From positions 3,808,501 through 3,872,500 of the forward strand of contig NZ_CP014841.1 of assembly GCF_001641285.1 (NCBI RefSeq): a stretch of DNA of 64,000 nucleotides. The letters are read 5' to 3'. Made by a program: the position numbers and the translations under genes. Shown here one piece after another: positions 17,992 through 53,274 of this stretch. Below the pieces are notes generated by a model. It worked only from the letters and a program-made list of their open reading frames with translations. It made no database searches and was not told the DNA's origin. How positions within the stretch are numbered: position 1 is the first letter of the stretch; each line of letters begins with the position of its first letter. The DNA comes from Dyella thiooxydans (GTDB taxonomy: Bacteria > Pseudomonadota > Gammaproteobacteria > Xanthomonadales > Rhodanobacteraceae).

Positions 17992-18061
17992 CAAAATCGT
18001 GACTAACATGTCGGTCCGGCGTGTGTAAAGCGAACTGAGTCACAGTACAGGGGGTAGTGCC

Positions 18062-19462
18062 ATGTTTCGCTCATCCAAGAATAGCGGCCTTCGCTGGCTG
18101 CTATTGCTTGCCGTCATCGAACTGCTGCTACTGAGCGTGTCGCTCTACGTAGCTGCACGTCTTCGCTACCCGGGGGCGCCTGAAGATCTCGCGCGCTTCA
18201 CCCGCTCGCTGGTGCTGCGATCGCTGGTGTTTGCCGCCGTGCTCATGCTCGGACTGGCTGCGCTGGGGCAGTACCAGTTGAACATGCGGACCAGCTGGTT
18301 CGGCCTGCTGGCCAGGCAGGCCGTCGGCTTCTGCTTCGGCGCGGTGATGCTGGTGGTGTTGTACTACGTCTTTCCCCAGGCATACGTCGGCCGCGGCGTG
18401 TTCGGTATCGGGCTGGCGGTGGGTTTCGCGCTGGTCACCGGATTCCGTCTGGTGTTCCAGCACCTGACCGAAGTCGAGGGTCTCAAGCGCCGGATCCTTA
18501 TCCTTGGCGCGGGCCAGCGTGCGGCCGAGGTGCACAGTCGCATGCGCCGCCGCTCCGATCGCCGTGGGTTCATCGTGGTCGGTTTCCTGCCTCGGGCCAG
18601 CGAGGAGGTCTGCGTGCCGGCCGAGCATCTGCTCGATCCGCAGCACACCCTGCTGCAGTGGGTGAACGAGCGCCAGGTGGACGAGGTCGTGGTGGGCGTG
18701 GAGGATCGTCGCGGCAACCTGCCGATGACCGACCTGCTGGAGTTGCGCCAGATCGGCGTCGAGGTGACCGATCTGACGACCTTCGTCGAGCGCGAGGCCG
18801 GTCGCGTCCAGCTTTCCTTTACCGATCCGTCCTGGCTGGTGTTCTCCGGCGGCTTCGACTCGACCCCGCTGCGCCGTTTCAGCAAGCGCTGTTTCGACCT
18901 GTTTGCCGCGGTCGTCGTGCTGTTGCTGACCTGGCCGTTCATGCTGCTGACGGCGTTGGCGATCCGCATGGAATCCGGTCGCGGCCAGCCCATCCTGTAC
19001 CGGCAGGAGCGGGTCGGTGCCCGTGGCAAGACCTTCTGGCTGACCAAGTTCCGCAGCATGGCGACCGATGCCGAGCGCGATGGCGTCGCCCGCTGGGCGA
19101 GCAAGAACGACGACCGCGTGACGCGGGTGGGGCGCTTCATCCGCAAGACGCGCCTGGACGAGCTGCCGCAGCTGTGGAACGTGGTGAAGGGCGACATGAG
19201 TTTCATCGGTCCGCGGCCGGAGCGTCCCCAGTTCGTGGCCGACCTGAGCCGCAAGATCCGCTATTACGAGGTCCGGCACTGCCTCAAGCCCGGTCTCGCA
19301 GGCTGGGCGCAACTGCGTTACCCGTATGGCGCCTCGGATGAGGATGCCGCGGAAAAGCTCAAGTACGACCTCTACTACGTCAAGAACCACAATCTCTTGT
19401 TCGACCTGCTGATCCTCATCCAGACCGTAGAGGTCGTCCTGTTCGGTCGCGGCGCGCGTTGA
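18062..19462 (+). CDS. Initiating polyprenyl-phosphate sugar-phosphate transferase (EpsB/TIGR03013-like)
   Basis: A 466-residue inner-membrane enzyme that starts repeat-unit assembly by moving a sugar-1-phosphate to undecaprenyl phosphate. It has four to five N-terminal helices, a Rossmann-like middle (RRILILGAGQRAAEV) and a C-terminal bacterial sugar transferase domain: RFSKRCFDLFAA, ILYRQERVGARGKTFWLTKFRSM, TRLDELPQLWNVVKGDMSFIGPRPE. The form matches sugar transferases associated with PEP-CTERM/exosortase loci. The 70 bases upstream (17992-18061) may hold its own promoter. The sugar moved is unknown. Confidence 0.9.
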   Translation: MFRSSKNSGLRWLLLLAVIELLLLSVSLYVAARLRYPGAPEDLARFTRSLVLRSLVFAAVLMLGLAALGQYQLNMRTSWFGLLARQAVGFCFGAVMLVVLYYVFPQAYVGRGVFGIGLAVGFALVTGFRLVFQHLTEVEGLKRRILILGAGQRAAEVHSRMRRRSDRRGFIVVGFLPRASEEVCVPAEHLLDPQHTLLQWVNERQVDEVVVGVEDRRGNLPMTDLLELRQIGVEVTDLTTFVEREAGRVQLSFTDPSWLVFSGGFDSTPLRRFSKRCFDLFAAVVVLLLTWPFMLLTALAIRMESGRGQPILYRQERVGARGKTFWLTKFRSMATDAERDGVARWASKNDDRVTRVGRFIRKTRLDELPQLWNVVKGDMSFIGPRPERPQFVADLSRKIRYYEVRHCLKPGLAGWAQLRYPYGASDEDAAEKLKYDLYYVKNHNLLFDLLILIQTVEVVLFGRGAR

Positions 19463-24674: not shown

Positions 24675-26552
24675 ATGATCGCCGCCAACGACCACGCGCT
24701 GGATTTCCTCGATTGGGCCGACCGGTCACCCGGCATCATCGCCCTGGCTGACGAGAGCCGGGCCCTCGACTACGCCGGGTTGCGCGTCAGGGTCATGACA
24801 TGGGCGGCGCGGCTGGGCGCCATGGGGATTGGGCCGGGCGATGTGGCCGGCGTGGCGTGCGACCGCTCCCTCGACAGCGTCGTGGCGATCCTCGCCGTGC
24901 TTGCCGCTGGTGCCGCCTACCTTCCGCTGGACCTTGGCTATCCCTCAACGCGCCTGGCCCAGATGGTCGAGGACGCGCGCCCGCGGGCGATGCTGCTGCG
25001 CTCCACGTCGGCCACGGCGGAACTGGCCGGCCTCGGCGTGGCGATGTTCGACATCGACGCGCCGGCGACGGTCGAGCCGCTGGCGGCACCGGTGACCGTC
25101 GATGCCTCGTGCGCCGCGTACGTGCTGTTCACCTCCGGCTCGACCGGTCGTCCGAAGGGGGCCGTGTTGTCGCGGCGGGCGCTCGGCCACATGGTCGCCT
25201 GGCATCTGCGGCATCCGCGCCTGGCCGCGCCGGCGCGCACCCTGCAGTTCGCCACCCTGGGCTTCGACTCCTCGGTGCGGGACCTGTTCGCCACCTTCGC
25301 CACCGGTGGGACGCTGGTGCTCGCCGGCGAGGCCGACCGCCGCGATCCGTTCCGCCTGCTCGCGATGATGCGCGAGCAGCGCATCGAGCGGGCGTTCCTT
25401 CCCTACGTGGAGTTGCGCGCCATCGCCAACGCCCACGCCGGGGGCGGACCGCTGCCCGCCGCGCTGCGCGACCTGATGACCGGCGGCGAGGCACTGGCGA
25501 TCACGCCGGCGATCCGCCGGCTGTTCGCCGAGCTGCCCGATGCGGTGCTGTACAACGAGTACGGCCCGACCGAGTCCTGCGTATTCGTGACCAGCAAGCC
25601 GCTGACGGGCGATCCGGCCGCCTGGCCGGACCGTCCGGATATCGGCGATCCGCTGGATCATGTGCGCCTGTACGTGGCCGACGACGAGCTGCGCGTGCTT
25701 CCGGATGGAAGCGAGGGCGAACTGCTGATTGGCGGCGAAAGCCTGGCCGACGGCTACGCACACCGTCCCGACCTGACCGCCGAGCGCTTCGTGCAGGTTC
25801 GTACCGGTGGCGAGGATGATGAGCGGGTCTACCGCAGCGGGGACCGCGTGCGGCGAGAGGCGGATGGCCGCCTGGTGTTCCTCGGGCGCGCGGACGACCA
25901 GGTGAAGATCGCCGGTTACCGGGTCGAGCTGGGCGAGGTCGAGGCCGCCCTGGCTGCGCATCCGCTGGTCGCCGAAGCAGCCGTGGTGGCGCCGGCTGGC
26001 GCGGAGGGGCGCCGACTGGTCGCCCACGTGGTCGCCAGGCCCGGAGCGCCGGCGGATTCCGAGCTGCTCGACGCGCTGAAACGTCACCTGGCCGAACGGC
26101 TTCCCGCCTTTGCGCGCCCGCAGCGACTGGTGCTCCACGACCGACTGCCGCTGACGCCCAACGGCAAGGCGGATCGACGGCGGCTGGAGGCGGAGTCCGT
26201 GGTGGCGCACGCACCCGCCGCGGCGACGCTGCCTGAGCATGCGACCGCGGAACAGCGCATCCTTGCCGCGTGGCGCGAGCTGCTCGAGCTCCCCTCGCTT
26301 CGAGCCGAGGACAACGTGTTCGACCATGGCGCCGATTCGCTGCGGGTGATGGCGGTGCTTCCGCGCCTGCAGGCGCTGGGCGTGGAGGGGTTGTCGGCCA
26401 CGCGCGTCTACGAATTTCCGACCGCGCGGCAGCAGGCGCAGGCGCTGGCCGGCCATGCAGCCACCCAGCCGGCGCCATCACCGGTCAGGGGCGCCCAGCA
26501 GCGCGATGCCCTTGCGCGCCTGCGCGACCGTCACAGGAAGACGAACGGATGA
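24675..26552 (+). CDS. Stand-alone NRPS adenylation-carrier protein (A-PCP)
   Basis: A 625-residue NRPS loading-type protein. The adenylation domain (about 10-500) shows YVLFTSGSTGRPKGAV (A3), LGFDSSVRDLF (A4), YNEYGPTES (A5), YRSGDRV (A7), GRADDQVKIAGYRVELGEVE (A8) and PLTPNGKADRR (A10 lysine). The carrier domain follows, with attachment Ser555 in DHGADSLRV. There is no condensation domain. Residues at the substrate-pocket positions read D-S-R-F-M-G-E-V-F by my alignment to GrsA, a code I do not recognise. The Asp at the first position suggests an amino-acid substrate. It probably supplies the starter to the KS of the next gene, which overlaps it by ATGA. Confidence 0.87.
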   Translation: MIAANDHALDFLDWADRSPGIIALADESRALDYAGLRVRVMTWAARLGAMGIGPGDVAGVACDRSLDSVVAILAVLAAGAAYLPLDLGYPSTRLAQMVEDARPRAMLLRSTSATAELAGLGVAMFDIDAPATVEPLAAPVTVDASCAAYVLFTSGSTGRPKGAVLSRRALGHMVAWHLRHPRLAAPARTLQFATLGFDSSVRDLFATFATGGTLVLAGEADRRDPFRLLAMMREQRIERAFLPYVELRAIANAHAGGGPLPAALRDLMTGGEALAITPAIRRLFAELPDAVLYNEYGPTESCVFVTSKPLTGDPAAWPDRPDIGDPLDHVRLYVADDELRVLPDGSEGELLIGGESLADGYAHRPDLTAERFVQVRTGGEDDERVYRSGDRVRREADGRLVFLGRADDQVKIAGYRVELGEVEAALAAHPLVAEAAVVAPAGAEGRRLVAHVVARPGAPADSELLDALKRHLAERLPAFARPQRLVLHDRLPLTPNGKADRRRLEAESVVAHAPAAATLPEHATAEQRILAAWRELLELPSLRAEDNVFDHGADSLRVMAVLPRLQALGVEGLSATRVYEFPTARQQAQALAGHAATQPAPSPVRGAQQRDALARLRDRHRKTNG

Positions 26553-29500
26553 ATGAGAAGGACGCCATCGAAGGCATCGCCATCGTCGGCATGGCCGGGC
26601 GGTTTCCCGGCGCGGCCTCGGTGCGCGAGCTGTGGGACAACCTGCTCGCCGGCCGGGAGGGCATCACGCGCTTCGGGCCCGGCGAACTCTCGCCAGGGTT
26701 GCCGGCGGCGCAGACCCGGCATCCGCGTTACGTGCCGGCGCGCGGCGTGCTGTCCGATGCCGATCGCTTCGACGCCGGGTTCTTCGGCATCGCTTCGCGC
26801 GAGGCGGTGCTGATCGATCCCCAGCAGCGGGTGTTCCTCGAGCTGGCCTGGAATGCACTGGAGGACGCCGGTATCGACCCGGCCCGCTTCCCGGGGAGCA
26901 TCGGGGTCTATGCGGGCACCTCAAACAATACGTATCGGAAGCTGGTCGAATCGCGGTCCGATCTGCTGGAGGCGGCGGGCGAATTCGCCGCGGCGATCGC
27001 CAGCGAAAAGGACTACGTGGCCACCCGCGTGGCACATCGCCTCGATCTCACCGGGCCCGCGGTGAGCGTTCACACCGCCTGTTCCACCTCGCTGGTGGCG
27101 GTGGCGCAGGCCTGGTGGGCGCTGATGAGCTACCAGTGCGATCTCGCACTGGCCGGCGGGATAAACATCGTCGTGCCGCAGGAGTCGGGCTATGTCCCGG
27201 TGGATGGCGGCATCGAGTCGGAGGACGGGCATTGCCGGCCTTTCGACGCGGCGGCCACCGGCACGGTGTTCTCCTCCGGCGGTGGCGCCGTGGTGCTCAA
27301 GCGGCTGGCCGACGCGCTCGCCGACGGCGACACCGTCTACGCGGTGATCCGTGGCGTGGGCGTCAACAACGACGGTGGCGACAAGGCCAGCTTCGGCGCG
27401 CCCAGCGTGCGCGGGCAGGCCGCGGTGATCCGCCAGGCGCTCGACTGCGCGGGCGTCAGCGCCGCATCGATCGGCTACGTCGAAGGCCACGGCACCGCCA
27501 CGCCGCTGGGGGATCCGATCGAGGTCGCCGCGCTCGACCGCGCATTCGCCGAGGGCGGTGCCGCGCCGGGGAGCTGCTGGCTCGGCTCGGTGAAAAGCAA
27601 CTTCGGTCATCTCAATGCCGCCAGTGGCATCGCCGGACTGATCAAGGCGGCGCTGGCGCTGCACCACGAATGCATCCCGGCGACGCTGCATTACCGCACG
27701 CCCAATCCGCAGATCGATTTCGCCGCCAGCCCGTTCCGGGTGGCCGACCGCCAAGTCGCCTGGCCCCGCGGCGGCGAGCCGCGGCGGGCCGGCGTCAGCT
27801 CCTTCGGCGTCGGTGGCACCAACGCCCACGTCATCCTGGAGGAGGCACCACCGATGCCCGCGTCGGGGCCGGGACGCCGCCTGAACCTGTTGCCGCTCTC
27901 GGCTCGCGACGAGGCGGCGTTGCAGCGACGCGCGGAGCAACTCGCCGTGGCCATGGCGGACGACGATGCCCCGGCGCTGCCGGACGTGGCCTGGACGCTG
28001 GCGATGGGCCGGCAGCCTATGGCCGCGCGTGGCTTCGTGGTTGCCGCCGATGTCCACCAGGCAAGCGAGCGCCTGCCGCGGATGGCCGCGCACGTCGCAC
28101 CGGCGGAACCGCCATCGCTGGTGATGCTGTTCCCCGGGCAGGGAGCGCAACACGCAGGCATGGCAAGGGAACTGGCGGAGCACGAGCCGGTGTTCCGTCA
28201 TGCATTCGAGCGGGGCTGCGCGCTCGCCAGCAGCTTGCTGGGTGAAGACCTGCGTGCGTTGATCCTTCCGGCAGCGGAGGGCGAGGACGAGGCCGCGCGG
28301 CGGCTGGCCGAGACGCGATTCACCCAGCCGGCACTGTTCGTGGTCGAGTACGCGCTGGCCGAGTTGTGGGCGGCATGGGGCCTGCATCCGGTGGCGATGA
28401 TCGGCCACAGCATCGGCGAGTACGTGGCGGCCTGCCGGGCCGGCGTGTTTTCGCTGGAGGACGCGTTGCGGCTGGTGGTCGCCCGCGGCGCGGCGATGTT
28501 CGCGCAGCCGCCGGGTGCGATGCTGGTGGTGCGGGAGGACGCCGAGGCGCTGCGCGCCCGTCTGCCGCAGGGTGTGGAGATCGTCGGTTGCAATGCGCCG
28601 ACCCAGACCGTGCTCGGCGGCACCGACGCGGTCATCGACGCGTTCGCCGCCAGCCTGGCTGCCGGGGACGTCGCCTGCACCCGGCTGCGGGTCAGCCATG
28701 CCTTCCACAGCCACCTGATGGAGGGCGCCCTGCCGTTGTTCCGCCGGGCCTTCGATGGCGTCGTGCTGCACCCGCCGGAGCGGACTTTCTATTCCTGCGT
28801 CAGCGGCCTGCCGGTCACCGTGGAACAGGCAACCTCGATCGACTACTGGTGCCGGCAGTTGCGCGCGCCGGTGCGTTTCGCCGATGCCGTGCGCCATGTG
28901 CTCGAACAGGGCCCCGCGTTGCTGCTGGAGGCCGGACCGTCCCAGGCACTCAGCGGGCTGGTCCGCGGCATGCTCGACGGGCGCGGCAGCGCGGTGGCCA
29001 GCCTCGGGCCGGCCTCGCGCGCAGGCGACGCCCAGGAGCAGGTACTGCGGGCGCTCGGTGAATGCTGGTGCGCCGGACTCACCCCGGACTGGCAGGCCTT
29101 CCACGGCGAGGTGCCGCGGCGTCGTGTGCCGCTGCCCGGCTACCCGTTCCACGGCAAGCGCTACTGGGTCGAGCCGGCGGCGTCCGCACCCGCCGCCATC
29201 GACATGACACCGGCGGCAGCGACCAAGTCCGCGGCCTCGCCATCCCCGGAGGAAACCGCAAGCATGCCGTCCGCCGCACCTTCCCCGAGTGCCATGCCAC
29301 GACCGCTGCGACTGGCCGCCGAACTGCGCGAGCTGTTCGGCAACCTTGGGGGCGAGCCGCTGGATGCCCGGCACGACGCCGAGAGCTTCCTCGACCTCGG
29401 CTTCGATTCGCTGTCCCTGACCCAGGCCGCGCTCGCCGTCGAGCAGCAATATGGCGTGAAGATCAAGTTCCGCCGCCTGATGGAGGACGTGGACAGCATC

Positions 29501-32500
29501 GGAAACCTGGCAGGGATGCTCGACGCCACCCTGCCGCCCGACGCCCTGCCGCCGGCGGCCATCGCCGCGGCTCCAGTCCAGGGCCAGGCGGCGGGCGCAG
29601 CCATGCCGTCCACGCTGGCCCAGCTGATCCAGAACCAGATGGCGCTGCTGCAGCAGCAGAGCGCGCTGCTGGCGAGTCTGTCCGGTCAGCCGTCGGGCGG
29701 CCTGCCCGCCGGATCGGTCCCGGCCGCTGCACCTGCGTTGCCCGCCATGGCGGCCGACGAGTTCGCCCCGGCCAACCTGAAAGAGCGTCCGTTCGGCGCG
29801 TCCGCGCGCATCACCACCGACCGCCACGGTGACGTCTCTCCTGCCCAGCGCGCCTGGCTGGAGACCTTCACCGAGGCGTACTGCCGGCGTACCCGCAGGT
29901 CGAAGGACTTCGCCCAGCAGCATCGTGCGCTGATGGCCGATCCCCGCGTGGTGACCGGCTTCAATCCGCAATGGAAGGAACTGGTCTACCCGATCACCGC
30001 CGAGCGCTCGCTCGGCGCCCGGCTGTGGGACCTGGACGGCAACGTCTACATCGACCTGCTCAACGGCTTCGGCGTGAACTTCCTCGGCTACCAGCCGGCG
30101 TTCGTCACCGCGGCGCTGCATGCGCAGGTCGATACCGGCGTCGAGATCGGTCCGCAGCACCCGCTGGCCGCCGAGGTGGCGCAGCTGATCAGCGACATGA
30201 CCGGGATGGCCCGCGTCGGCTTCTGCAACACCGGTTCGGAAGCGGTGATGGGCGCCATGCGTGTGGCGCGCACGGTCACCGGGCGCAAGACCATCGTGGT
30301 GTTCCGCGACTCCTACCACGGCATCTTCGACGAGGTGATCGTGCGTGGTACCCGCACGCTGCGTTCGATCGCTGCGGCGCCGGGTATCCTCGCCAACGCG
30401 GTGGAAAACGTGCTGGTGCTGGACTACGGCACCGACGAGGCGCTGCGCATCATCGGCGAGCGCGGCCAAGAACTGGCCGCGGTGCTGGTCGAGCCGGTGC
30501 AGAGCAAGCATCCGGAGCTGCAGCCGAAGGCGTTCCTGCAGGCCCTGCGCGGTCTGTGCGACCAGGCCGGCTGCGCGCTGATCTTCGACGAGATCATCAC
30601 CGGCTTCCGCATGGCCCCGGGGGGCGCGCAGGAGGCATTCGGCGTGCGCGCGGATCTGGCCACCTACGGCAAGATCATCGGCGGTGGCCTGCCGTTCGCC
30701 GCGATCGCCGGCAGCGCGAAATGGATGGATGCGCTGGACGGCGGCTTCTGGCAATTCGGCGACGACAGCTACCCGGGTGCCGGCGTCACCTATTTCGCCG
30801 GCACCTTCGTGCGGCATCCGCTGGCGCTGGCCGCGGCGAAGGCCGCGCTGCAGTGGATCCGGGAACAGGGGCCGCAGTTGCAGGCCTCGCTCAATGCACG
30901 CACGCAGGACATGGTGGCGCGGCTCAATGCGCTCTTCGACGCGCGGCAGGCCCCGGTGACGGCGGTGGGTTACAGCTCGTTGTGGAAGCTGCGCGTCGAT
31001 GACGGCCAGCCGTTCGCCAGCCTGCTGTGGTACCGGCTGCGCCATGCCGGGCTGCATGTGTTCGAGCAGTTCAACTGCTTCCTCTCCGTGGCGCATGGCG
31101 ATGCCGAGGTCGAGGCTATCGTCGCGGCGGTCACCGAGTCGGTGGACGACCTGCTGGGCGCCGGCATGCTGCTGCCGCGTCATGCCGCGGCCATGCCCGC
31201 GCCTGCGCCGGAGATCGATCGACTTCCGGCCAAGGTGCCGCTCACCGACGCGCAGCTCGGGCGCTGGCTTGGCATGCACTTCAGCGACGATATCGCGCCG
31301 GCCTTCAACGAATCGACGCAACTCAGCTTCCGGGGTCCATTGGATGCCGATGTGCTGCGGCGCGCCTTCGATACGGTGGTGGCACGCCACGAAATCTTCT
31401 CGATGCGCTTTGCCGAGGACGGCAGCGGGCAGACGTTCGAACCGCCCGCCGCGGTGCGCCTCGAGTCGCTTGATCTCAGTGGTGACGCCGATCGGCAGCA
31501 GCGGCTCGACGCCTTCGTGGCCGAGCAGTCGGCACGCCCGTTCGATCGCCTGCAGCCGCCCCTGCTGCGCGCCTGGCTGGTCAAGCTCGCCGACCAGGAG
31601 CACACCCTGGTGATGGTGTCCCATCACATCGTGATGGACGGCTGGTCGCTCAGCGTGTTCCTGCGCGAGCTGGCCACGGGCTACAACGCGTTCCGCCAGG
31701 GCACGGCGCCGGCGTGGCCGTCGGCGGATGCCTGGCGCCGGTTCGTGCTGGACGAGCGCGCGCGCCGCGACGGCGCGGAAGGTCGCGAATCGCTGGACTG
31801 GTGGCAGGCGCAGTACCGCACGCTGCCCGACCCGCTGGCGCTGCCGCTGGACCGTCCGCGCGGGCGCGATGGCGGCTTCCGCGGCGCGACCCTGGGCGGC
31901 CATCTGGACGGCGACGTGGCCAGGACCCTGCGTGAGGCGGCGCGGTCGCAGCGGGTCACCCTGTTCGCGCTGCTGCTCGGTGGCTTCTATGCGCTGCTGC
32001 AGCGTTTGTCCGGACAGGACGACCTGGTCTGCGGCATCCCCTTCGCCGGGCAGGCGGTGAGTCGTTACGGCCAGACGGTCGGCGATGCGGACAACACGTT
32101 GCCGCTGCGCATGGCGGTGGATCCGGACGAGTCGTTCGGTGCGCTGGTCAAGCGCGTGCAGGGCCGCCTGCTGGACGCCGGCGAGCACCAGGACGTCTCG
32201 ATCGCCCGCATCGCGCAGGCGCTGAAGCTGCCGCGCGACACCGGACGCCTGCCGTTGGCGGAGGTGCTGTTCAACTTCAATCCGGCGGTGGCGGATACGC
32301 CTTGGGATGGTGTTGCGGTGACCCACGGGGACCTGCCCAAGCGCCACATGAACTGGGACATCGAGTTCCATTTCACCGAGCACGAAGGGCGGCTGGACTT
32401 CCTGTTCCACTACAACCCGGGCCTGTTCGACGCGGCGACGATCGAACGCTGGAGCGGCTACCTGGGCGGGATCCTGCGCCAGGGTGCGGCGCGACCGGAG

Positions 32501-34432
32501 CAGGCCGTCGGCGACTTCGTGCTGATGGACGAAGCCGAGCGCCGCCGGGTGCTGGAAGGCTGGAACGACACCGACGCGCCGCTGGACCGGCGGCAGTCCC
32601 TGGTCGAGCTGATCGGTGCGACCATGCGCGAGCATCCGTTCCGCACCGCGGTGAGCGGCAGCGGCATTTCGGTGGACTACGCCGGCCTCGACGCCGCCTC
32701 GCGTGCGCTGGCGCTGGCGCTGGGGCGACGCGGCATCGGTCGCGGCGACTACGTCGGCGTGTGCGTGCCGCGCACCGTGGACATGCTGGTGGCGGTGCTC
32801 GGCGTCCTGCGCAGCGGCGCCGCCTACGTGCCGCTGGATCCGGAGTTTCCGCCCGAGCGGCTGCGTTACATGGCGGACAAGGCCGCTGTCCGCTCGATCC
32901 TTTGCGGACCGGCCGCGGCCGTGCCGGAGGTATTGAGGCAGGGGGCACAACTGCTGGAGGTGACGCAGCTGATGCGCGAGCCGGACGACGGCGGCGAACT
33001 GCCGGCGGTCCACGGCGACGATCAGGCCTATGTGCTGTTCACTTCCGGCTCGACCGGCCAGCCCAAGGGCGTGCGCATCCTGCACCGGAACCTGGTGAAC
33101 TTCCTGCGCTCGATGCAGCGCGATCCGGGGTTCGCCACCGCCGACGTGCTCTGCGCGGTGACCACGCTCTCGTTCGATATCGCCGGCCTGGAGATGTACC
33201 TGCCACTGATCTGCGGTGGCCAGGTGGTGGTGGCCACCGAGGCCGATCACCGCGACCCGCAGGCCTTGTGCGAGCTGATCGAGCGCAGCGGCTGCACCGT
33301 GCTGCAGACCACACCGTCGCTGCTCAAGCTGGTGGAGGAGATCGGTTACGACAGCGTCTTCGCCGGGCTGCGCCTGCTGGTCGGTGGCGAGGCATTGCCG
33401 CTGGCGCTGGCGCGCTCGCTCGCTGCGCGTTGCCGTGGCATGTGGAATCTGTACGGTCCCACCGAGACCACGATCTGGTCCACGGTGGCACCGATCGAAG
33501 CGGGCGTGGAGGTGGTGCCGCTGGGCCGGCCGATCGCCAACACGCGGATCTACGTGCTCGACCGCCGTGGCCAGCCGGTGCCGCCCGGGGTGATCGGGGA
33601 GATCATGATCGCCGGCGACGGCGTGGCCGATGGTTACCTGGGAGAGCCCGCGCTGACCGCCCAGCGCTTCGTGCCCGAGTCGTTCCACGCCGGCGACGGG
33701 CGCATGTACCGCACCGGCGACCTGGGCGCCTGGCGCGACGGCGTGCTGTATTTCCACGGCCGCGTCGACCATCAGATCAAGATCCGTGGCTTCCGCATCG
33801 AACCGGGCGACATCGAGGCGGTGGCCGGCGCCGATCCGTCGGTGCGCGAATGCGTGGTGGTGGCGCATCGCTTCGGGGACAACGATCTGCGCCTGGTGCT
33901 CTATGCAGTGGTCGACGGCGATCGGCTGGAGGTGTCCGAGCGCCTGCGCGGCACGCTGCGCGAGAAGCTGCCCGCCTACATGGTGCCGCAGCTGGTGGAG
34001 GTGCTGGACCGGTTGCCGAAGACCGCCAACGGCAAGATCGACCGGAAAGCCCTGCCGGCGCCGACGGCAGCGATCGAGTCGCCGGCGGTCGATGCCGCAC
34101 CGGCGGTGTTCGACGATGCCCGCCAGGCCTATCTGGCCTCGTTGTGGCGCGAACTGATCGGTGCACCGACCGTGCGGGCCAGCGACAACTTCTTCGATGT
34201 CGGTGGCCATTCGCTGCTTGCGGTGGCTTTCACCACGCGCGTGCAGCGCGAGACAGGGGTGCGCATCAACCTGCTCGACGTGGCGACCAGTACGCTGGCG
34301 GCGCTGGCCGCGGCACTGCCGGAGCCGGCGGAAGCGGCCGAGGCGTCCCCCGAAGCGCAGGACAGCTCGCTTCGCGCGCGGATGTCGCGCCTGTTCGGGC
34401 GCTCCAGAGACGGTGGGAAGCACGGTCGATGA
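26549..34432 (+). CDS. Hybrid PKS-NRPS with embedded aminotransferase (KS-AT-ACP-AmT-C-A-PCP)
   Basis: A 2627-residue megasynthase. KS about 7-430 with catalytic Cys178 (TACSTS), His314 and His354. AT about 525-815 with Ser621 (GHSIGEY) and HAFH at 717-720, which predicts malonyl-CoA. ACP with Ser954 (LGFDSLS). Class III PLP aminotransferase about 1090-1535 with Lys1375 (TYGKIIGGGLPFA). Condensation domain about 1560-1995 with HHIVMDG at 1692-1698. Adenylation domain about 2024-2504 whose pocket positions read D-I-L-Q-L-G-L-I-W, the glycine code. PCP with Ser2555 (DVGGHSLLA). There is no KR, DH, ER or thioesterase. The predicted action is to extend a starter by two carbons, aminate the beta-keto group and join it to glycine. 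The order ACP-AmT-C-A-PCP recalls iturin/mycosubtilin synthetases. ATGA overlaps on both sides. Confidence 0.93.
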   Translation: MNEKDAIEGIAIVGMAGRFPGAASVRELWDNLLAGREGITRFGPGELSPGLPAAQTRHPRYVPARGVLSDADRFDAGFFGIASREAVLIDPQQRVFLELAWNALEDAGIDPARFPGSIGVYAGTSNNTYRKLVESRSDLLEAAGEFAAAIASEKDYVATRVAHRLDLTGPAVSVHTACSTSLVAVAQAWWALMSYQCDLALAGGINIVVPQESGYVPVDGGIESEDGHCRPFDAAATGTVFSSGGGAVVLKRLADALADGDTVYAVIRGVGVNNDGGDKASFGAPSVRGQAAVIRQALDCAGVSAASIGYVEGHGTATPLGDPIEVAALDRAFAEGGAAPGSCWLGSVKSNFGHLNAASGIAGLIKAALALHHECIPATLHYRTPNPQIDFAASPFRVADRQVAWPRGGEPRRAGVSSFGVGGTNAHVILEEAPPMPASGPGRRLNLLPLSARDEAALQRRAEQLAVAMADDDAPALPDVAWTLAMGRQPMAARGFVVAADVHQASERLPRMAAHVAPAEPPSLVMLFPGQGAQHAGMARELAEHEPVFRHAFERGCALASSLLGEDLRALILPAAEGEDEAARRLAETRFTQPALFVVEYALAELWAAWGLHPVAMIGHSIGEYVAACRAGVFSLEDALRLVVARGAAMFAQPPGAMLVVREDAEALRARLPQGVEIVGCNAPTQTVLGGTDAVIDAFAASLAAGDVACTRLRVSHAFHSHLMEGALPLFRRAFDGVVLHPPERTFYSCVSGLPVTVEQATSIDYWCRQLRAPVRFADAVRHVLEQGPALLLEAGPSQALSGLVRGMLDGRGSAVASLGPASRAGDAQEQVLRALGECWCAGLTPDWQAFHGEVPRRRVPLPGYPFHGKRYWVEPAASAPAAIDMTPAAATKSAASPSPEETASMPSAAPSPSAMPRPLRLAAELRELFGNLGGEPLDARHDAESFLDLGFDSLSLTQAALAVEQQYGVKIKFRRLMEDVDSIGNLAGMLDATLPPDALPPAAIAAAPVQGQAAGAAMPSTLAQLIQNQMALLQQQSALLASLSGQPSGGLPAGSVPAAAPALPAMAADEFAPANLKERPFGASARITTDRHGDVSPAQRAWLETFTEAYCRRTRRSKDFAQQHRALMADPRVVTGFNPQWKELVYPITAERSLGARLWDLDGNVYIDLLNGFGVNFLGYQPAFVTAALHAQVDTGVEIGPQHPLAAEVAQLISDMTGMARVGFCNTGSEAVMGAMRVARTVTGRKTIVVFRDSYHGIFDEVIVRGTRTLRSIAAAPGILANAVENVLVLDYGTDEALRIIGERGQELAAVLVEPVQSKHPELQPKAFLQALRGLCDQAGCALIFDEIITGFRMAPGGAQEAFGVRADLATYGKIIGGGLPFAAIAGSAKWMDALDGGFWQFGDDSYPGAGVTYFAGTFVRHPLALAAAKAALQWIREQGPQLQASLNARTQDMVARLNALFDARQAPVTAVGYSSLWKLRVDDGQPFASLLWYRLRHAGLHVFEQFNCFLSVAHGDAEVEAIVAAVTESVDDLLGAGMLLPRHAAAMPAPAPEIDRLPAKVPLTDAQLGRWLGMHFSDDIAPAFNESTQLSFRGPLDADVLRRAFDTVVARHEIFSMRFAEDGSGQTFEPPAAVRLESLDLSGDADRQQRLDAFVAEQSARPFDRLQPPLLRAWLVKLADQEHTLVMVSHHIVMDGWSLSVFLRELATGYNAFRQGTAPAWPSADAWRRFVLDERARRDGAEGRESLDWWQAQYRTLPDPLALPLDRPRGRDGGFRGATLGGHLDGDVARTLREAARSQRVTLFALLLGGFYALLQRLSGQDDLVCGIPFAGQAVSRYGQTVGDADNTLPLRMAVDPDESFGALVKRVQGRLLDAGEHQDVSIARIAQALKLPRDTGRLPLAEVLFNFNPAVADTPWDGVAVTHGDLPKRHMNWDIEFHFTEHEGRLDFLFHYNPGLFDAATIERWSGYLGGILRQGAARPEQAVGDFVLMDEAERRRVLEGWNDTDAPLDRRQSLVELIGATMREHPFRTAVSGSGISVDYAGLDAASRALALALGRRGIGRGDYVGVCVPRTVDMLVAVLGVLRSGAAYVPLDPEFPPERLRYMADKAAVRSILCGPAAAVPEVLRQGAQLLEVTQLMREPDDGGELPAVHGDDQAYVLFTSGSTGQPKGVRILHRNLVNFLRSMQRDPGFATADVLCAVTTLSFDIAGLEMYLPLICGGQVVVATEADHRDPQALCELIERSGCTVLQTTPSLLKLVEEIGYDSVFAGLRLLVGGEALPLALARSLAARCRGMWNLYGPTETTIWSTVAPIEAGVEVVPLGRPIANTRIYVLDRRGQPVPPGVIGEIMIAGDGVADGYLGEPALTAQRFVPESFHAGDGRMYRTGDLGAWRDGVLYFHGRVDHQIKIRGFRIEPGDIEAVAGADPSVRECVVVAHRFGDNDLRLVLYAVVDGDRLEVSERLRGTLREKLPAYMVPQLVEVLDRLPKTANGKIDRKALPAPTAAIESPAVDAAPAVFDDARQAYLASLWRELIGAPTVRASDNFFDVGGHSLLAVAFTTRVQRETGVRINLLDVATSTLAALAAALPEPAEAAEASPEAQDSSLRARMSRLFGRSRDGGKHGR

Positions 34433-46944: not shown

Positions 46945-47693
46945 TGCAGCGTCTCCATATGGCGCTGCACGCGGGCGATCAGCTCGTGCGACTGGATGGC
47001 CACCTCGAGGCGGTCGAGGTCGTCCCAGCCGAGCGGCTCGTCCAGCGCCACGATGTTTCCGGCGCGGGGGAACACGTGGGCCGAGTCGAGCAGCAACGCG
47101 GCAGGAGGAACGGACAGGTGCATCGCCGCCAGCTCGTCCCCGAATTGTTCGCCGTGCGGAAAGCCCAGCCACTGGCCGGCACCTTCCGCCGCAGTCCGCG
47201 GACGGGCGAAGCGGCGGGTGTCGGCAAGCATCTCGGCATGCAACGCCTCGAGCTGCGCCCGATGCGCGACGCCATCGAGGATCGGATCGCACAGCATCAG
47301 CGCGTCGAACGGCTGCCGGTCATGCGCCTGCAGCGCGACGCTGCCGCCGAGCCGTGCGCCGAAGGCGAGCAGGCGGCGGCAGCGGCTACGCTGGCGCAGT
47401 TCCCCGGCCGCGACCAGGGCGTCATCGACGCAGCGGGCGAGCGTGGTCTGGTCGGCGTCGCCGCAGGAGTCGCCGCTGCCGTAGTAGTCGAAGCGCATGA
47501 CGGCCAGTCCCCGCCGTACGAACATGTGCGCGAGCTGGCGGTACAGGCGATGGCTGCGGATCAGGTCCTGCCCCAGCGGTGGGCAGAGCAGGACCGCTGT
47601 GCTGGGCGGGTAGGCCGGTTCGGCCATGAGGCCGAACAGCGATCCTTGCGGCCCGAAGTAACCGGGTATCTCCTTGAGGAGCTCGCCACTCAT
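46941..47693 (-). CDS. Alpha/beta hydrolase-like protein, exosortase A system-associated type 2
   Basis: A 250-residue hydrolase-fold protein. AVLLCPPLGQDLIRSHRLYRQLAHMF and VMRFDYYGSGDSCGD are the patterns of the hydrolase 2 family of exosortase-A EPS clusters. The nucleophile elbow position reads LLAFGARLGGSVAL, with Arg where a Ser would be expected in GxSxG, so catalysis by the standard triad is doubtful. It is coupled by ATGA overlaps to genes on both sides. The role is unknown. Confidence 0.78.
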   Translation of the reverse strand: MSGELLKEIPGYFGPQGSLFGLMAEPAYPPSTAVLLCPPLGQDLIRSHRLYRQLAHMFVRRGLAVMRFDYYGSGDSCGDADQTTLARCVDDALVAAGELRQRSRCRRLLAFGARLGGSVALQAHDRQPFDALMLCDPILDGVAHRAQLEALHAEMLADTRRFARPRTAAEGAGQWLGFPHGEQFGDELAAMHLSVPPAALLLDSAHVFPRAGNIVALDEPLGWDDLDRLEVAIQSHELIARVQRHMETLQ

Positions 47694-49003
47694 CGCCGGA
47701 AGATCACCCCGACATAGATCCGGTTCTCGTGAAAGCTCTGGCCCGCCGCGTCGCTATGCCGCTGCTGGTGCAGGAAGGACACGCGCCACGACCAGTGCAC
47801 CGTGCGCTGGTCGGTAAGGGCGACCTCGTAGCTGACCGTGCGGTCCAGGCGATTGAGGGTGTCGTAGCGCAGCCGCTCGCCGTTGACATAGGCCGAGAGC
47901 AGCAGCGTGGGACGGAACTTGTAGTCCAGACCGACGTTGGCGCCCTTGCCGACCTGATCGTAGGTCGTGTCGTTCACGTAGCTCAGCTTGCGATAGTAGG
48001 GAGCGAGCGAGAACGTCAGGCGGTCCGAGCGCCAGGCATAGGCGAGCTCGCCACGGCGCTCCAGATAGACCTGCGGCCCCACCACGGTCTGCCCGGTCAC
48101 GATGCCGCCACGCCCCTCGACCGGCGAGGTGAGGTCCGGCTCGAGCATGCTCTGCGCCGCATCGGTGTATTGCCGCGCCAGGTTCACGCTCAGCGAATTG
48201 GTCTCGCTGGGGTGCCAGGTACCGGTGGCGCTCAGCATCGAGCCGGAATACGAGCGGGGCGAGCCCTGGTCGAACTGAAGGTGCGTCCAGCCGGCCGACA
48301 CGTCCAGCTCGGTATGGGCGGAGCTGCCCTGGTAGCGGCCGAAGAACTGGTCGCGTCGGTAATCCGATCCCGGCAGCGCCGAGGTGTAGTGGACCTTCTG
48401 GGTCTCGGCGTTCAGCGATCCCACGTCGCTGTGGCTGAAGTCGTGGATCAGCCGGGCGGCGAACTGGCCGCGCTGCGAGTCGAACTGCTTGGTCTTCTGC
48501 GCCCGGCTGTCGATGTAGCGGGCATCCACCTGGCCATGCCAGGCCGACGCGAGATCGAAGCGCAGGGTCGGCCCCAGGCTGAGCACGTTGGTCTGCTGGA
48601 GGTTGGTCGGCGAATTGCTGACCGTCGAGTCGACCGGCTGCACCGCGGCGTAATCCTCTACCACGAAATCCAGGCGCTGCGGCGAAATGGACCAGTTGGC
48701 CTGGCCGGAGAGCTGGGTCTGGGTCTGGTTGCTGAAACGCGAACCGAGGTAGTCCCGGTATTCGATGCTGCCGAGCACATGGGCCTGCAGGTCCTCGCCC
48801 TGCTGGTCGAAGCGGAACGTGGCGCCCGGAATCAGCGTGCTCTGGCTGATCGGATCGGTCGCGCTCAGCGTGATGTTGTCGCTGTGCTCGATGCCGGTGT
48901 AAAGGGTGTAATCCAGTTGCCCGGCCCGGGCTCCGGCGCAGGCGAACAGGCTGGTGATCGTGGCGGCGAGGATGCGCCGTGAGCAGCGATGATGTGCGGA
49001 CAT
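47690..49003 (-). CDS. Outer-membrane beta-barrel protein of the EPS cluster
   Basis: A 437-residue exported protein. A signal peptide (to about residue 28, ARAG) is followed by YTLYTGIEHSDNITLSATDP and alternating amphipathic strands throughout. It ends in an aromatic-basic strand (HENRIYVGVIFRR). This pattern fits the outer-membrane barrels found in exosortase-type and other EPS export loci. The start is set by a GAAGGGG upstream of MSAHH. It may form the polymer's exit channel together with the OPX lipoprotein. A 155-base gap separates it from the kinase-like gene. Confidence 0.8.
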   Translation of the reverse strand: MSAHHRCSRRILAATITSLFACAGARAGQLDYTLYTGIEHSDNITLSATDPISQSTLIPGATFRFDQQGEDLQAHVLGSIEYRDYLGSRFSNQTQTQLSGQANWSISPQRLDFVVEDYAAVQPVDSTVSNSPTNLQQTNVLSLGPTLRFDLASAWHGQVDARYIDSRAQKTKQFDSQRGQFAARLIHDFSHSDVGSLNAETQKVHYTSALPGSDYRRDQFFGRYQGSSAHTELDVSAGWTHLQFDQGSPRSYSGSMLSATGTWHPSETNSLSVNLARQYTDAAQSMLEPDLTSPVEGRGGIVTGQTVVGPQVYLERRGELAYAWRSDRLTFSLAPYYRKLSYVNDTTYDQVGKGANVGLDYKFRPTLLLSAYVNGERLRYDTLNRLDRTVSYEVALTDQRTVHWSWRVSFLHQQRHSDAAGQSFHENRIYVGVIFRR

Positions 49004-49098
49004 AGTCTTACCCCTTCCGGGCCAGGATGCGGGGATGCGCGTGCTTCTCCCACCGGGCATGCCGATGGAAAACAGCTCACCTGCTCCCCTGTTTTGGG

Positions 49099-49158: not shown

Positions 49159-49935
49159 TCAAGGAGCCTGGTTGAAGATCACGCCCGCCAGCTTGGACCG
49201 GTCGAACCTGCTGGCGGCCTGCATGATCGCTGCGGGTGTGTCCTTGCCGTAGCCGGCCACGAGCACGACGAAGTCCGCCAGTTCGGCCAGGATGCGGGCA
49301 TCCGGCGACCCCTTCACGGCAGGGCCGTCGAGGAAAATGTAGCGGTCGTTGTAGCGGCTCCGCAGCGAGTCCACCATCGCCCGCATGCGGAACGAGGAAA
49401 AGTACTCGCCGACATTCTCGCGCGCAGTGCCGGCGGGAATCAGCCGCACGTGGCGCAGCACGGTCGGATAGATCACCGACTGGATTCCGCGCGAGGGATG
49501 GTCGAGGAAGTCGATCAGGCCGCCGTTGTCGGTATCCACACCGAGCACGCGGTGCTGCTCGGGATAGCGCAGGTTGCAGTCGATCAGCAGGCTGGTCTTG
49601 GACTGGTCGAATGCAAAGGCCGCGGCCAGGTTGCGCGCCACGAAGCTTGCGCCGCAGCCGGGGCTCACGGCCACCACCAGGGTGATGAAGTTCTGGTCGT
49701 TGGCCAGTTCCAGGAGCCGGGTGCGGATCTCGCGGAACACGTCGGCCTGGCTGCGCGAGGACTGCTCGGCATGGATCAGCCGCCGCTGCTCGAGCTGGGA
49801 CGGCACCAGGGCACGCGTCTCCTCCATGAGTGCGATCGACTGGCTGTCGCTCTTGCGCGGAAGCTGGTCGCCCGGTCCGTTGTTGGAACCGACCGGCAAC
49901 TGGCCTTCCCCGGTATGGTCGTCGCGCATGTTCAT
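49159..49935 (-). CDS. BY-kinase-like P-loop protein lacking the Walker A lysine
   Basis: A 258-residue cytoplasmic protein of the CpsD/CapB-like family, normally a tyrosine autokinase partnering the chain-length protein. FITLVVAVSPGCGASFVARNLAAAF is the Walker A region (about residues 83-107), but Ala96 replaces the nucleotide-binding lysine. Walker A' (LLIDCNLRYPEQH) and Walker B (RYIFLDGPAV) are recognisable. The C-terminus (GVIFNQAP) has no tyrosine cluster. It may be a pseudokinase scaffold. The start at 49935 overlaps the chain-length gene stop by ATGA. Confidence 0.82.
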   Translation of the reverse strand: MNMRDDHTGEGQLPVGSNNGPGDQLPRKSDSQSIALMEETRALVPSQLEQRRLIHAEQSSRSQADVFREIRTRLLELANDQNFITLVVAVSPGCGASFVARNLAAAFAFDQSKTSLLIDCNLRYPEQHRVLGVDTDNGGLIDFLDHPSRGIQSVIYPTVLRHVRLIPAGTARENVGEYFSSFRMRAMVDSLRSRYNDRYIFLDGPAVKGSPDARILAELADFVVLVAGYGKDTPAAIMQAASRFDRSKLAGVIFNQAP

Positions 49936-51482
49936 GCTGCAGCCCTCAGGTTGATCCATACCGAAACGAGGTAGGCCAGCACGATGGCGAAGGCGACCGC
50001 TCCCAGCAGGATGAACTGCATCTGCTGGCGACGACGGTCCTGCGGCGCCTGGTAGTACGGAATGGTCGCCAGCATGGGCAGCCCGGTGAGCTGCTCGAGC
50101 TGTTCGGCCGAGCGGACGCGGGGATCGAACCGTACCAGCAGGAACAGCAGTCCGAGCGGTACGCCGATGGCCATCACGATGCCGACCAGGGCGAAATGGA
50201 TGAAGCGCAGTCCGGATGGCGCCAGCGGCAGCGTGGCGGGGTCCTGCACGATGAAGTTCAGTCCCTGCTGGGTGGCGTCCAGGTTCATCGAGACGCGCGC
50301 GTTCTCCCGGCGCTTGAGCAGATCCTGGTAGACGTCGCGGTTGACGTCGTAATCGCGGGTCAGCTCGGCGACCACGTTCTCCGAACCGGCCACGCGCTTG
50401 GCGCGCTCGAGCTCGTCGTTGAGCATGGCCTGGCTGGCGCTCAGGCGCGCGCCGGTGGCGGCGATGTCTCCGCGCAGCGCGGCGAGCTGGCTCTTCAGTT
50501 GCTGGTACAGCGGGTTGAACTGCGCATTGCCGTCGATCGCCACTGGTGTGCCGGCGAGCTTGGCGGCCTGCCGCTTGGCGTCTTCGGCCTGGATCTGCCG
50601 TTTGATGTCGTCCATCTGGTGGCGGGTCCGCACCACGTCCGGATATTCGTTGGTGTAGTTGAGCAGCAGCTTGTCCAGTTTCGCCTGCAGGTCGGCCAGT
50701 TGGGCGCGGTAGACGCCGTCGGTGGTCTGCACGGCGGTCACTTCGGATTCGCCCGAGAGCTGGGACATCAGCGACGCTTCCTGCGAGCGCTTCTGCATCA
50801 GGTCGAGCTTGGCGGTCTCCACCTGGGTGCGCAGCTCGCTGATGCGCGAATTGATGTTGGCGTCGCTGCCGGGCCGCGCGTCGATGTTGTTCTCGCGATA
50901 GCGCTTGAGGTTTTCCTCGGCGGCCGTCAGTTTCTGCCGGTACGCCTCGACCTGGCTGTCGATGAACTTGTACGCGTCGCGGCTCTCGCGCTGCTTGGAC
51001 GCGAGGCTTTCGCTGATGAACAGCTTGCTGAAGTCGCGGGTCACCTCGAACGCGCGCTTCGGATCGGAATCGTGATAGCTGATGGTGATCAGGTTGCCGT
51101 GGCTCAGATTGACCACGGTGCGAGCCTTGATGCCGTCGATGATGCGGTCGATCTCGGCCGGGGACGGTTTGTCCTGGAGCAGACCGGCGTCGGCGAGCAC
51201 CTGGTTCATCACCGGGCGACTGAAGATCACGTCACGCGCGATGTTGGCGCGATTCTTGGTGCCCGTCGGCGAGGCGGCGCCCTCCATCAGCGGCGTGATG
51301 ATGCTGCTCTCCTGCGCGAGGATCGTGGTGCTCGCGTCGTAGCGCTTTGGCCACGCAAGACCCAGTGCGAGCGCGCCGAGCGCGATCACCACGAAGATCA
51401 GGATCATCGTGCCCAGCCGGCGCCTCGCCTCGGTCAACAGCACCGGTAGCAAGGACTGCAGGCTCGGTTGTTCGTCCTTCAT
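49932..51482 (-). CDS. Polysaccharide chain-length determinant (Wzz/XrtA-associated type)
   Basis: A 516-residue polysaccharide co-polymerase. Two transmembrane helices bracket a long periplasmic coiled-coil domain: one near residues 23-45 (LGTMILIFVVIALGALALGLAW) and one near 440-465 (FIHFALVGIVMAIGVPLGLLFLLV), plus a third hydrophobic segment near the C-terminus. The helical middle (FIDSQVEAYRQKLTAAEENLKRY and DKLLLNYTNEYPDVVRTRHQ) matches the form found in exosortase-A EPS clusters. It would control polymer length together with the kinase-like protein encoded next. Confidence 0.9.
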   Translation of the reverse strand: MKDEQPSLQSLLPVLLTEARRRLGTMILIFVVIALGALALGLAWPKRYDASTTILAQESSIITPLMEGAASPTGTKNRANIARDVIFSRPVMNQVLADAGLLQDKPSPAEIDRIIDGIKARTVVNLSHGNLITISYHDSDPKRAFEVTRDFSKLFISESLASKQRESRDAYKFIDSQVEAYRQKLTAAEENLKRYRENNIDARPGSDANINSRISELRTQVETAKLDLMQKRSQEASLMSQLSGESEVTAVQTTDGVYRAQLADLQAKLDKLLLNYTNEYPDVVRTRHQMDDIKRQIQAEDAKRQAAKLAGTPVAIDGNAQFNPLYQQLKSQLAALRGDIAATGARLSASQAMLNDELERAKRVAGSENVVAELTRDYDVNRDVYQDLLKRRENARVSMNLDATQQGLNFIVQDPATLPLAPSGLRFIHFALVGIVMAIGVPLGLLFLLVRFDPRVRSAEQLEQLTGLPMLATIPYYQAPQDRRRQQMQFILLGAVAFAIVLAYLVSVWINLRAAA

Positions 51483-51514: not shown

Positions 51515-52135
51515 TCAGAACGAGCGCTGCGGCACGGTGATGACGTCGCCCGGCTGGACCGGATAGTTGGTGCCCAGCTTGCCGTCCTGAAGGATCTGAC
51601 CCAGCTGCACCGCGTAGGACGAGGTGGTCGACTTGGTCTTGCGATAGAGCTCGGTCCGGTCCGGTGCCGCGAACTCGGTGATGCCGCCTGCGGCCAACAC
51701 CGCATCGAGCACCGTCATGCCCTGGTGGTAGGGAATCGAGACCGGATTGCGTACAGCGCCGGTCACGCGGACCCGCAGCAGATACTCGTGGCTGCGCAGC
51801 TCGGTCACGATGACCGCCACCTGCGGATCGCGGATGAAGCTCTTCAGGCGCTCCTTGATGTCGGCCGACACCTGGTCCGGCGTCTTGCCGCCCGCCACCA
51901 CGTCTCCGATCAGTGGCACCGTGATGCGGCCGTCCGGACGGACCGGCACCTTCACGCTGAGGTCGGGATTGTTCCAGACCGAGACTTCGAGCAGGTCATC
52001 GACGCCGATGTGGTACTGCGTCATGGCCTGCGCATCGGGGTTGAACACGGGCGCGTCGGTCGAGCCCTGGGTGGTCGCACATGCGGCGAGCACGAGGCTG
52101 AAGAGCGCTGCAAGTAGAGCCTGATAGATCTTCAT
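51515..52135 (-). CDS. Polysaccharide export lipoprotein (OPX, Wza-like short form)
   Basis: A 206-residue outer-membrane lipoprotein. The lipobox LVLAACATT places the lipidated Cys after a short signal. The polysaccharide export domain (YHIGVDDLLEVSVWNNPDLSVKVPVRPDGRITVPLIGDVVAGGKTP) is followed by a SLBB-like segment (LLRVRVTGAVRNPVSIPYHQGMTVLDAVLAAGG). It is shorter than E. coli Wza, as in exosortase-A-type loci. The start is the ATG at MKIYQ. First gene of the reverse operon, 32 bases before the chain-length gene. Confidence 0.92.
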   Translation of the reverse strand: MKIYQALLAALFSLVLAACATTQGSTDAPVFNPDAQAMTQYHIGVDDLLEVSVWNNPDLSVKVPVRPDGRITVPLIGDVVAGGKTPDQVSADIKERLKSFIRDPQVAVIVTELRSHEYLLRVRVTGAVRNPVSIPYHQGMTVLDAVLAAGGITEFAAPDRTELYRKTKSTTSSYAVQLGQILQDGKLGTNYPVQPGDVITVPQRSF

Positions 52136-52172
52136 AAATGTGAACCAGTTCCATTGACTCGTTGTTAACCGG

Positions 52173-52181
52173 ATATTAGCA
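52173..52181 (-). promoter_or_regulatory. Extended -10 promoter candidate for the export operon
   Basis: On the minus strand TGC is followed directly by TAATAT, an extended -10. The start site would lie near 52166, about 31 bases before the ATG of the OPX gene. The GGCTGCTAAT 10-mer around it (52175-52184 on the minus strand) is identical to that upstream of the forward PKS-NRPS/EPS operon. Confidence 0.45.
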
Positions 52182-52263
52182 GCCAATTGTTTCCGGGAGC
52201 CATGCCGGGGTGCCGGGAGCGCAGATCGGTTCCGACCCCAAGCGGTCGGTTTTCGGCGACCAT

Positions 52264-53274
52264 ATGCCGATGCCAATCGCGATCCCGCCCTCTGCCACCC
52301 CCTGGCGCGTCTGTGTCGCCCCGATGATGGACTGGACCGACCGGCATTGCCGGTATTTCCACCGTCTGCTGTCCCCCCACGCGCGGCTTTACACGGAAAT
52401 GGTCACCAGCGCGGCGCTGGTGCGCGGCGGGCAGCTCCGGCTGCTCGAGCACAGCCAGCAGGAACACCCCGTGGCACTGCAGCTGGGCGGCAGCGAGCCG
52501 GAAGAGCTGGCGCAGGCCGCGGTGTTCGGCGCCCAGGCCGGCTACGACGAGATCAACCTCAACGTCGGCTGCCCCTCCGATCGCGTCCAGTCCGGCCGCT
52601 TCGGTGCCTGCCTGATGCTGGACCCGGGGCTGGTGGGACAGTGCGTCCGGGCCATGCGTGATGCTGTGCAGGCCGCGGGCTCAAGCATTCCGGTCACGGT
52701 CAAATGCCGCATCGGGGTGGACGACCAGGACGCTTACGCCGGCCTGCAGCGCTTCACCGAGGCGATGGTGGAGGCCGGTGTGCAGATCCTTGTCGTGCAT
52801 GCCCGCAAGGCGTGGCTGCAGGGGCTGAGCCCGAAGGAGAACCGCGAGATCCCGCCGCTGGATTACGACCGGGTCTACCGCCTCAAGCGGGAGTTCGCCG
52901 GCCTCACCGTGGTGATCAACGGTGGCATCACCACGGTGGCCCAGGTGCGCGAGCACCTGCAGTCCGTCGATGGCGTGATGCTCGGGCGGGCGGCGTACCA
53001 CGATCCTTTCCTGCTGGCGGAACTGGAGACCGCCCTGTACGGCGAACCGCTGCCGGCCCGCGAGGCGGTGCTGAGCCACCTGCGGCCCTACGTGGAGGCG
53101 GAGCTGGCCCGGGGCACGGCGCTGAAGCACATCACCCGGCACCTGCTGGGTCTCTATCAGGGTCAGCCGGGGGCGCGCGCTTTCCGCCGCATACTGAGCG
53201 AGGGGGCCCATCGACCGGGGGCGGGCTGGAGTCTGCTGGAAGAGGCGATGGATCCGGTACGCGTCGCGGCATGA
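52264..53274 (+). CDS. dusA: tRNA-dihydrouridine(20/20a) synthase
   Basis: A flavoenzyme of 336 residues that reduces uridine to dihydrouridine in the tRNA D-loop. VCVAPMMDWTDRHCRYFHRLL is the DusA N-terminus. EINLNVGCPSDRVQSGRFGACLM contains the catalytic Cys. VVHARKAWLQGLSPKENREIPPL is the tRNA/FMN-site segment specific to DusA, and VVINGGITT binds FMN phosphate. The start is taken at 52264; another ATG lies 2 codons on. Divergent from the EPS export operon. Confidence 0.94.
   Translation: MPMPIAIPPSATPWRVCVAPMMDWTDRHCRYFHRLLSPHARLYTEMVTSAALVRGGQLRLLEHSQQEHPVALQLGGSEPEELAQAAVFGAQAGYDEINLNVGCPSDRVQSGRFGACLMLDPGLVGQCVRAMRDAVQAAGSSIPVTVKCRIGVDDQDAYAGLQRFTEAMVEAGVQILVVHARKAWLQGLSPKENREIPPLDYDRVYRLKREFAGLTVVINGGITTVAQVREHLQSVDGVMLGRAAYHDPFLLAELETALYGEPLPAREAVLSHLRPYVEAELARGTALKHITRHLLGLYQGQPGARAFRRILSEGAHRPGAGWSLLEEAMDPVRVAA

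Follow-up and report, generated by a model that had tools for sequence, protein, structure and literature searches.

Does a protein with the fold of a bacterial tyrosine (BY) kinase remain an enzyme when the catalytic lysine of its P-loop is missing, or does it serve as a structural partner of the polysaccharide co-polymerase encoded next to it? The question was raised by a gene in a stretch of 64,000 nucleotides from Dyella thiooxydans (hereafter the window). In current models, as far as the accessible text of PMC11986026 goes, Wzc-type systems need a tyrosine phosphorylation cycle both for polymer length and for export. Likewise, PMC3795738 and PMC11340318 are cited below for their accessible portions.

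The gene and its locus

The first-pass annotation of the window had described a P-loop reading SPGCGASF, with Ala96 at the place of the invariant lysine, and re-reading of the sequence gave the same result (Table 1). Residues are numbered from the first ATG (266-aa form) unless stated otherwise, so that Ala96 of the shorter, 258-aa form becomes Ala104. Walker A' and Walker B, said to remain recognisable, were found as LLIDCNLR (with Asn as the second acid) and YIFLDGP. The C-terminus reads ...GVIFNQAP, a tail without tyrosine, in line with the reported absence of the C-terminal tyrosine cluster. Among the features of an active BY-kinase, the aspartates of Walker A' (the first one) and Walker B were present in the window protein and the lysine and the tyrosine cluster were absent.

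Table 1. Positions in the window of the pseudokinase gene, its motifs and the neighbouring genes.
Feature	Position	Strand	Remarks
Putative BY-pseudokinase gene	49159..49959	-	266 aa from first ATG; alternative ATG at 49935 gives 258 aa
Walker A (P-loop), SPGCGASF	49642..49665	-	Ala104 (codon 49648-49650) replaces the catalytic Lys
Walker A', TSLLIDCNLR	49567..49596	-	Asp127 kept; second acid is Asn129
Walker B, YIFLDGP	49321..49341	-	Asp211 kept
EX2RX2R-type ring-contact motif, DVFREIR	49723..49743	-	
Partner polysaccharide co-polymerase without kinase domain	49932..51482	-	516 aa; TIGR03007, 391 bits, over cut-off
Co-polymerase DPRVR motif	50112..50126	-	Near the co-polymerase C-terminus, between two hydrophobic segments
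Wza-like export protein	51515..52276	-	TIGR03027, 202.6 bits, over cut-off
Outer-membrane beta-barrel protein	47690..49060	-	TIGR03016-related (34 bits, below cut-off); Pfam BBP2_2 over cut-off

On the minus strand the genes follow in the order Wza-like export protein, co-polymerase, pseudokinase and outer-membrane protein. The exopolysaccharide locus also contains an NRPS module and a large PKS/aminotransferase/NRPS hybrid (24675-34432, plus strand). Positions 14853-19462 (plus strand) carry tviB- and tviC-like nucleotide-sugar genes, a weak match to a phosphopantetheinyl transferase and a TIGR03013 phosphoglycosyltransferase. The PADLOC search gave no match.

The best family match of the pseudokinase was TIGR03018, over the full model length, with a score of 172.8 bits, below the cut-off of 230.65; the Wzc model scored 74.5 bits. 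The Wzc structure 3la6 from the PDB, which has Met at the place of the lysine, matched the sequence with an E value of 2e-17. Judged by these matches, the window protein is a true BY-kinase homologue. The AlphaFold2 (AF2) model of the protein (pLDDT 81.8) has the predicted BY-kinase fold and matched the folds of Wzc and CapAB with Z scores of 23 to 24, the best being Wzc 3la6 (Z 23.9, rmsd 2.8, 205 residues aligned).

Loss of the lysine and the tyrosine tail in one clade

Dyella ginsengisoli LA-4 encodes a protein 100% identical to the pseudokinase over 258 residues, and the lysine was absent in 38 of 38 relatives from a scan of species genomes (L012 was read individually), which argues that the loss is due neither to chance nor to a sequencing error. 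For a wider sample, 369 genomes from the class were screened with the TIGR03018 profile, and 147 of them had a match. The 30 top loci and 60 among the matches listed, scoring about 258 to 172 bits, were taken from this search blind to the P-loop. A clade alignment was then used to search 398 phylum and 200 order genomes, which, together with 15 stretches, supplied further members; 192 domains were aligned once duplicates had been removed. Left out of the counts were L001 and L138 (equal to the window), L003-L006 (P-loop proteins with low scores, encoded in the same genome), L040 (truncated where its contig ends, and lysine-less too), L143 (same place as L199) and the identical domains L135, L145, L159 and L165. 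The window protein was counted as L007.

A FastTree analysis of the 192 domains without the P-loop columns revealed three clades, with a single origin of clade III, which includes the window protein (support 96); clades I and II were split by the tree, and L119 and L002 fell outside all three. A quick mixture-model tree of 128 rows, with the lysine column included, also gave one origin for the 48 lysine-less rows then known (SH-aLRT 98). The clade III gene was detected in 34 of the 200 order genomes (at least 245 bits; next match 152 bits) and in nine of the 398 phylum genomes (best match at least 275 bits; 185 bits in the genome ranked next). A second copy, at 228 bits, was present in one of these nine genomes. 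All of these proved lysine-less on reading.

Neither the catalytic lysine nor any tyrosine after the domain occurred in the 84 members of clade III (0/84 for each). All 72 members of clade I had the lysine, and 71 had at least two tail tyrosines; the corresponding numbers for clade II were 33 and 16 of 34. The trees thus place the loss of the lysine in one clade with a single origin, and it is not a local oddity. The one lysine-less protein of clade II, L204 (G250:C18:50378-56965), has Thr at the Walker A position, an independent loss. Fewer than two tail tyrosines were counted in 18 of the 34 clade II rows, L204 among them and L075, L087 and L093 as examples that keep the lysine. Loss of the tail alone is therefore common.

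The ring-contact motif was retained in clade III, with Arg76 and Arg79 in 84 of 84 members and D/E (42/84) or N (40) at the first position. According to the accessible part of PMC3795738, the EX2RX2R motif lies in the octamer interface. Between D. ginsengisoli and D. lutea, dN was 0.002 and dS 0.185 over the domain. The median dN/dS was 0.40 in clade III (1252 pairs) versus 0.51 in the lysine-containing clades (656 pairs), medians that are unreliable because most pairs are too diverged.

The co-polymerase partner and a probable scaffold role

In 83 of the 84 clade III loci the gene immediately upstream, in the same orientation, encodes a co-polymerase; in the exception, L010, the contig begins at the pseudokinase gene. 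In these 83 loci, 105 to 369 bases separate the co-polymerase stop codon from the kinase-like domain that follows. The 516-aa co-polymerase of the window contains no kinase-domain stretch, and no natural fusion of co-polymerase and pseudokinase was present among the fetched loci. Scored against the window's co-polymerase, frames of at least 480 aa gave 252 to 1095 bits in clade III (78 frames), 32 to 195 bits in clade I (33) and 33 to 123 bits in clade II (31); 34 of the 67 clade I frames were shorter than 480 aa, with short flanks, and were left out of this comparison. The scores indicate that the co-polymerase has co-diverged with the pseudokinase.

A DPR[VIL]R-type motif ([DNG][PS][RK][VILM]R) was identified within the last 130 residues in 80 of the 83 clade III co-polymerases and in none of the 67 from clade I or the 34 from clade II. 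In all 80 it had a hydrophobic stretch on each side, and the remaining three (L011, L188 and L190) were near-misses.

Since the catalytic lysine and the tail were lost in every examined member of the lineage, the protein is probably a structural partner and not an enzyme. We consider it likely that it is a BY pseudokinase which transfers no phosphate and, in the cytoplasm, acts as a scaffold for the co-polymerase of the adjoining upstream gene. A scaffold in place of a kinase cycle had been suggested in the first-pass annotation, and the suggestion gains support from the clade-wide loss and from the precedent of EcpK and HfsB (PMC12004946). The pseudokinase would dock on the cytoplasmic loop of the co-polymerase, in the DPR[VIL]R region, and would hold or guide the co-polymerase ring around the polymerase. 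Chain length and export would then be governed by binding and unbinding and not by a tyrosine phosphorylation cycle. A nucleotide may, at a guess, still be held as a structural ligand.

Position 104 and the remaining pocket

Position 104 was occupied in clade III by G (27), A (26), S (15), T (14) or C (2). It changed 25 times (28 times on the tree built without the P-loop), solely among these five residues. Among the 49 columns with 20 to 30 changes, column 104 had the second-fewest residue types, and no other column with more than 13 changes was restricted to small residues. Elsewhere in the pocket, G103, S/T105, D127, D211 and N263 (the last presumably the adenine contact) were all kept in 78 of 84 members, L007 included. 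Taken separately, D127 was kept in 81 of 84 and the Walker B residue D211 in 83. Position 129 was D or N in all 84, the second acid of Walker A' being Asp in 14 and Asn in 70.

The six exceptions were of different kinds. L109, L193 and L194 have Glu in place of D127; the P-loop Gly is missing from L096 and L112, together with S/T105 in L096, and their remaining pocket residues are intact; in L190 four of the five are gone, the P-loop Gly, the Ser/Thr, the Walker B Asp and the terminal Asn all being replaced. L190 (L190:3001-3765; G455:C11:416683-417447) is the lower-scoring of the two clade III copies of its genome. The full retention in 78 members and the six exceptions suggest that the pocket is normally maintained and that part of it is dispensable in some members.

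Such retention of five pocket residues seems more than a pure scaffold would need, and EcpK, by contrast, is devoid of every Walker motif. The missing tail also counts against a scaffold, since in known kinases the octamer is held together partly by this tail (PMC3795738, PMC11986026, accessible parts) and clade III has none; clade II also commonly lacks it, yet keeps the lysine. In a more tentative reading, possible but in our view rather doubtful, the lysine-free and otherwise intact nucleotide pocket is fixed and selected. The protein would then be a nucleotide-clamped ring subunit, whose ligand would have a structural or sensing role and be coupled to the co-polymerase through the DPR[VIL]R loop. 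The restriction of position 104 to small residues over 25 to 28 changes, with the other pocket residues unchanged, would reflect selection on the lysine-free pocket. Clade III would be the natural counterpart of ADP-bound octameric mutants known from the laboratory. The CapA1B2(K55M) crystal contained an octamer with ADP-Mg although nucleotide had not been added (PMC3795738, accessible part), Wzc K540M forms octamers (PMC11986026, likewise), and the PDB titles describe 3la6 as octameric with bound ADP and 9i2q as carrying MgADP. In the BY-kinase fold, accordingly, neither nucleotide binding nor the ring requires the lysine.

Other kinases, exosortase and accessory genes in the genomes

Might the protein instead form mixed oligomers with an active BY-kinase from another locus of the genome and so modulate it? 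An ordinary Wzc with lysine and tyrosine tail was found in the window's genome, and six other genomes with clade III (G082, G137, G311, G051, G145 and G239) also carry a lysine-containing clade II relative. A similar role was proposed for CapB1 in the accessible part of PMC3795738. However, its own clade-specific co-polymerase stands alongside in 83 of 84 loci, and the authors of the EcpK study argue against reliance on active kinases (PMC12004946). Modulation of this kind is thus improbable compared with the scaffold role.

The label "exosortase-associated", used in the first-pass annotation, does not fit the window's genome, where a search with PF09721 (E up to 0.01) detected no exosortase. 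The enzyme was present in 25 of 40 clade III genomes and 27 of 30 clade I genomes.

A low-molecular-weight (LMW) tyrosine phosphatase gene (PF01451) adjoins the ordinary Wzc of the genome (C1:2537821-2538231) and two more lie elsewhere; none was found within the 64-kb window. Its absence from the locus was considered as a sign of a pseudokinase and rejected: no LMW phosphatase was found beside the clade I kinase in five genomes (G328, G169, G323, G360 and G061) either, and the missing phosphatase does not discriminate.

A second ATPase (TIGR03015) as supplier of energy was not supported in the window's genome, which had no match at E up to 1e-10. This family was present in 23 of 26 genomes searched. 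In G082, G311, G137 and G089 the distance between the ATPase and the pseudokinase domain is 1.3 to 1.5 kb and, given this proximity, the ATPase may matter there. We take the AAA+ protein PrmE to be a member of the family. PrmE is required in a Sphingomonas pathway, according to the accessible part of PMC11340318.

Candidate substitutes for the lost lysine

The alignment of the 84 clade III members contained no conserved lysine able to replace the lost one; such a lysine, with measured kinase activity, was what the first-pass annotation had named as speaking against its own reading. The only conserved lysines were K121 and K256. In the AF2 model they (K113 and K248 in 258-aa numbering) come just before strands 114-119 and 249-255, which puts both at strand starts, with the phosphate site at the opposite ends and so predicted to be away from them. 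Moreover, K or R occupies position 121 in 44 of the 72 clade I kinases, which have the catalytic lysine.

Two other basic positions are nearly specific to the clade. K or R was found at position 222 in 79 of 84 clade III members versus 17 of 72 in clade I and 0 of 34 in clade II, and at position 180 in 68 of 84 versus 5 of 72 and 2 of 34. From the order of strands and helices in the model, we infer that R180 and R222 lie on the active-site face of the sheet. L096 and L112 retain both R180 and a basic residue at 222 despite the lost P-loop Gly, which suggests that they are not tied to phosphate binding. An atypical nucleotide mode, the other option raised in the first-pass annotation, may still apply, given the otherwise retained pocket and the two nearly clade-specific arginines.

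A still-active kinase or ATPase, with another basic residue replacing the lysine, would agree with the intact rest of the pocket and with R180 and R222. Nevertheless, we regard it as very unlikely: no member has a substrate tail, the two basic positions outlast the P-loop Gly, and Wzc and CapB are inactive when the lysine is mutated, according to the accessible parts of PMC3795738 and PMC11986026.

A decaying gene without function, as the lost lysine and the further losses in L190 could suggest, is scarcely credible in view of the open frame in 84 members, the upstream co-polymerase in 83, the retained pocket and the low dN relative to dS between the two Dyella species.

Comparison with known systems

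The window protein shares with the TIGR03018 XrtA-associated tyrosine autokinases the family match and neighbours matching TIGR03027 and TIGR03007. It differs from them in the score below the cut-off, the missing lysine and tyrosine tail, and a genome in which no exosortase was found. Kinase activity should not be assumed for genes matching tyrosine-autokinase models in Dyella, Luteibacter, Pseudoxanthomonas, Marinobacter and others.

The lineage extends across several gammaproteobacterial groups in which the chemistry would have been lost once and the system kept, and it thus amounts to a natural experiment on the purpose of the phosphorylation cycle. The literature search, with subscription papers mostly outside its reach, recognised no paper on clade III and turned up no biochemical work on it. 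Cuthbertson et al. are cited in PMC12004946 for a wider sequence survey, and Cuthbertson 2009 may note the clade. As far as our searches went, the clade, its single origin, the retained pocket in which a small residue is enforced, and the signature of the partner are new.

The lysine mutants Wzc K540M and CapAB K55M (PDB 3la6, 7nhr, 9i2q and 2ved) have the same fold and the same lysine removed. Unlike clade III, which is tail-less, they are engineered and keep the tyrosine tail (Tyr changed to Glu in some entries).

The closest precedents for the scaffold role are EcpK of Myxococcus xanthus and, as described in the same paper, HfsB of Caulobacter, both BY pseudokinases of bipartite PCP-2 systems that pair with kinase-less co-polymerases (PMC12004946). 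Like them, clade III combines a stand-alone BY-kinase fold without catalytic lysine or tyrosine tail with a partner co-polymerase without a kinase domain, and by this analogy it probably works in the same way. In EcpK all three Walker motifs (A, A' and B) are gone, and its gene does not adjoin that of its co-polymerase (PMC12004946). Clade III, in contrast, keeps Walker A', Walker B and most of the P-loop, the lysine being replaced by small residues only, and its gene adjoins that of the co-polymerase with which it appears to have co-diverged.
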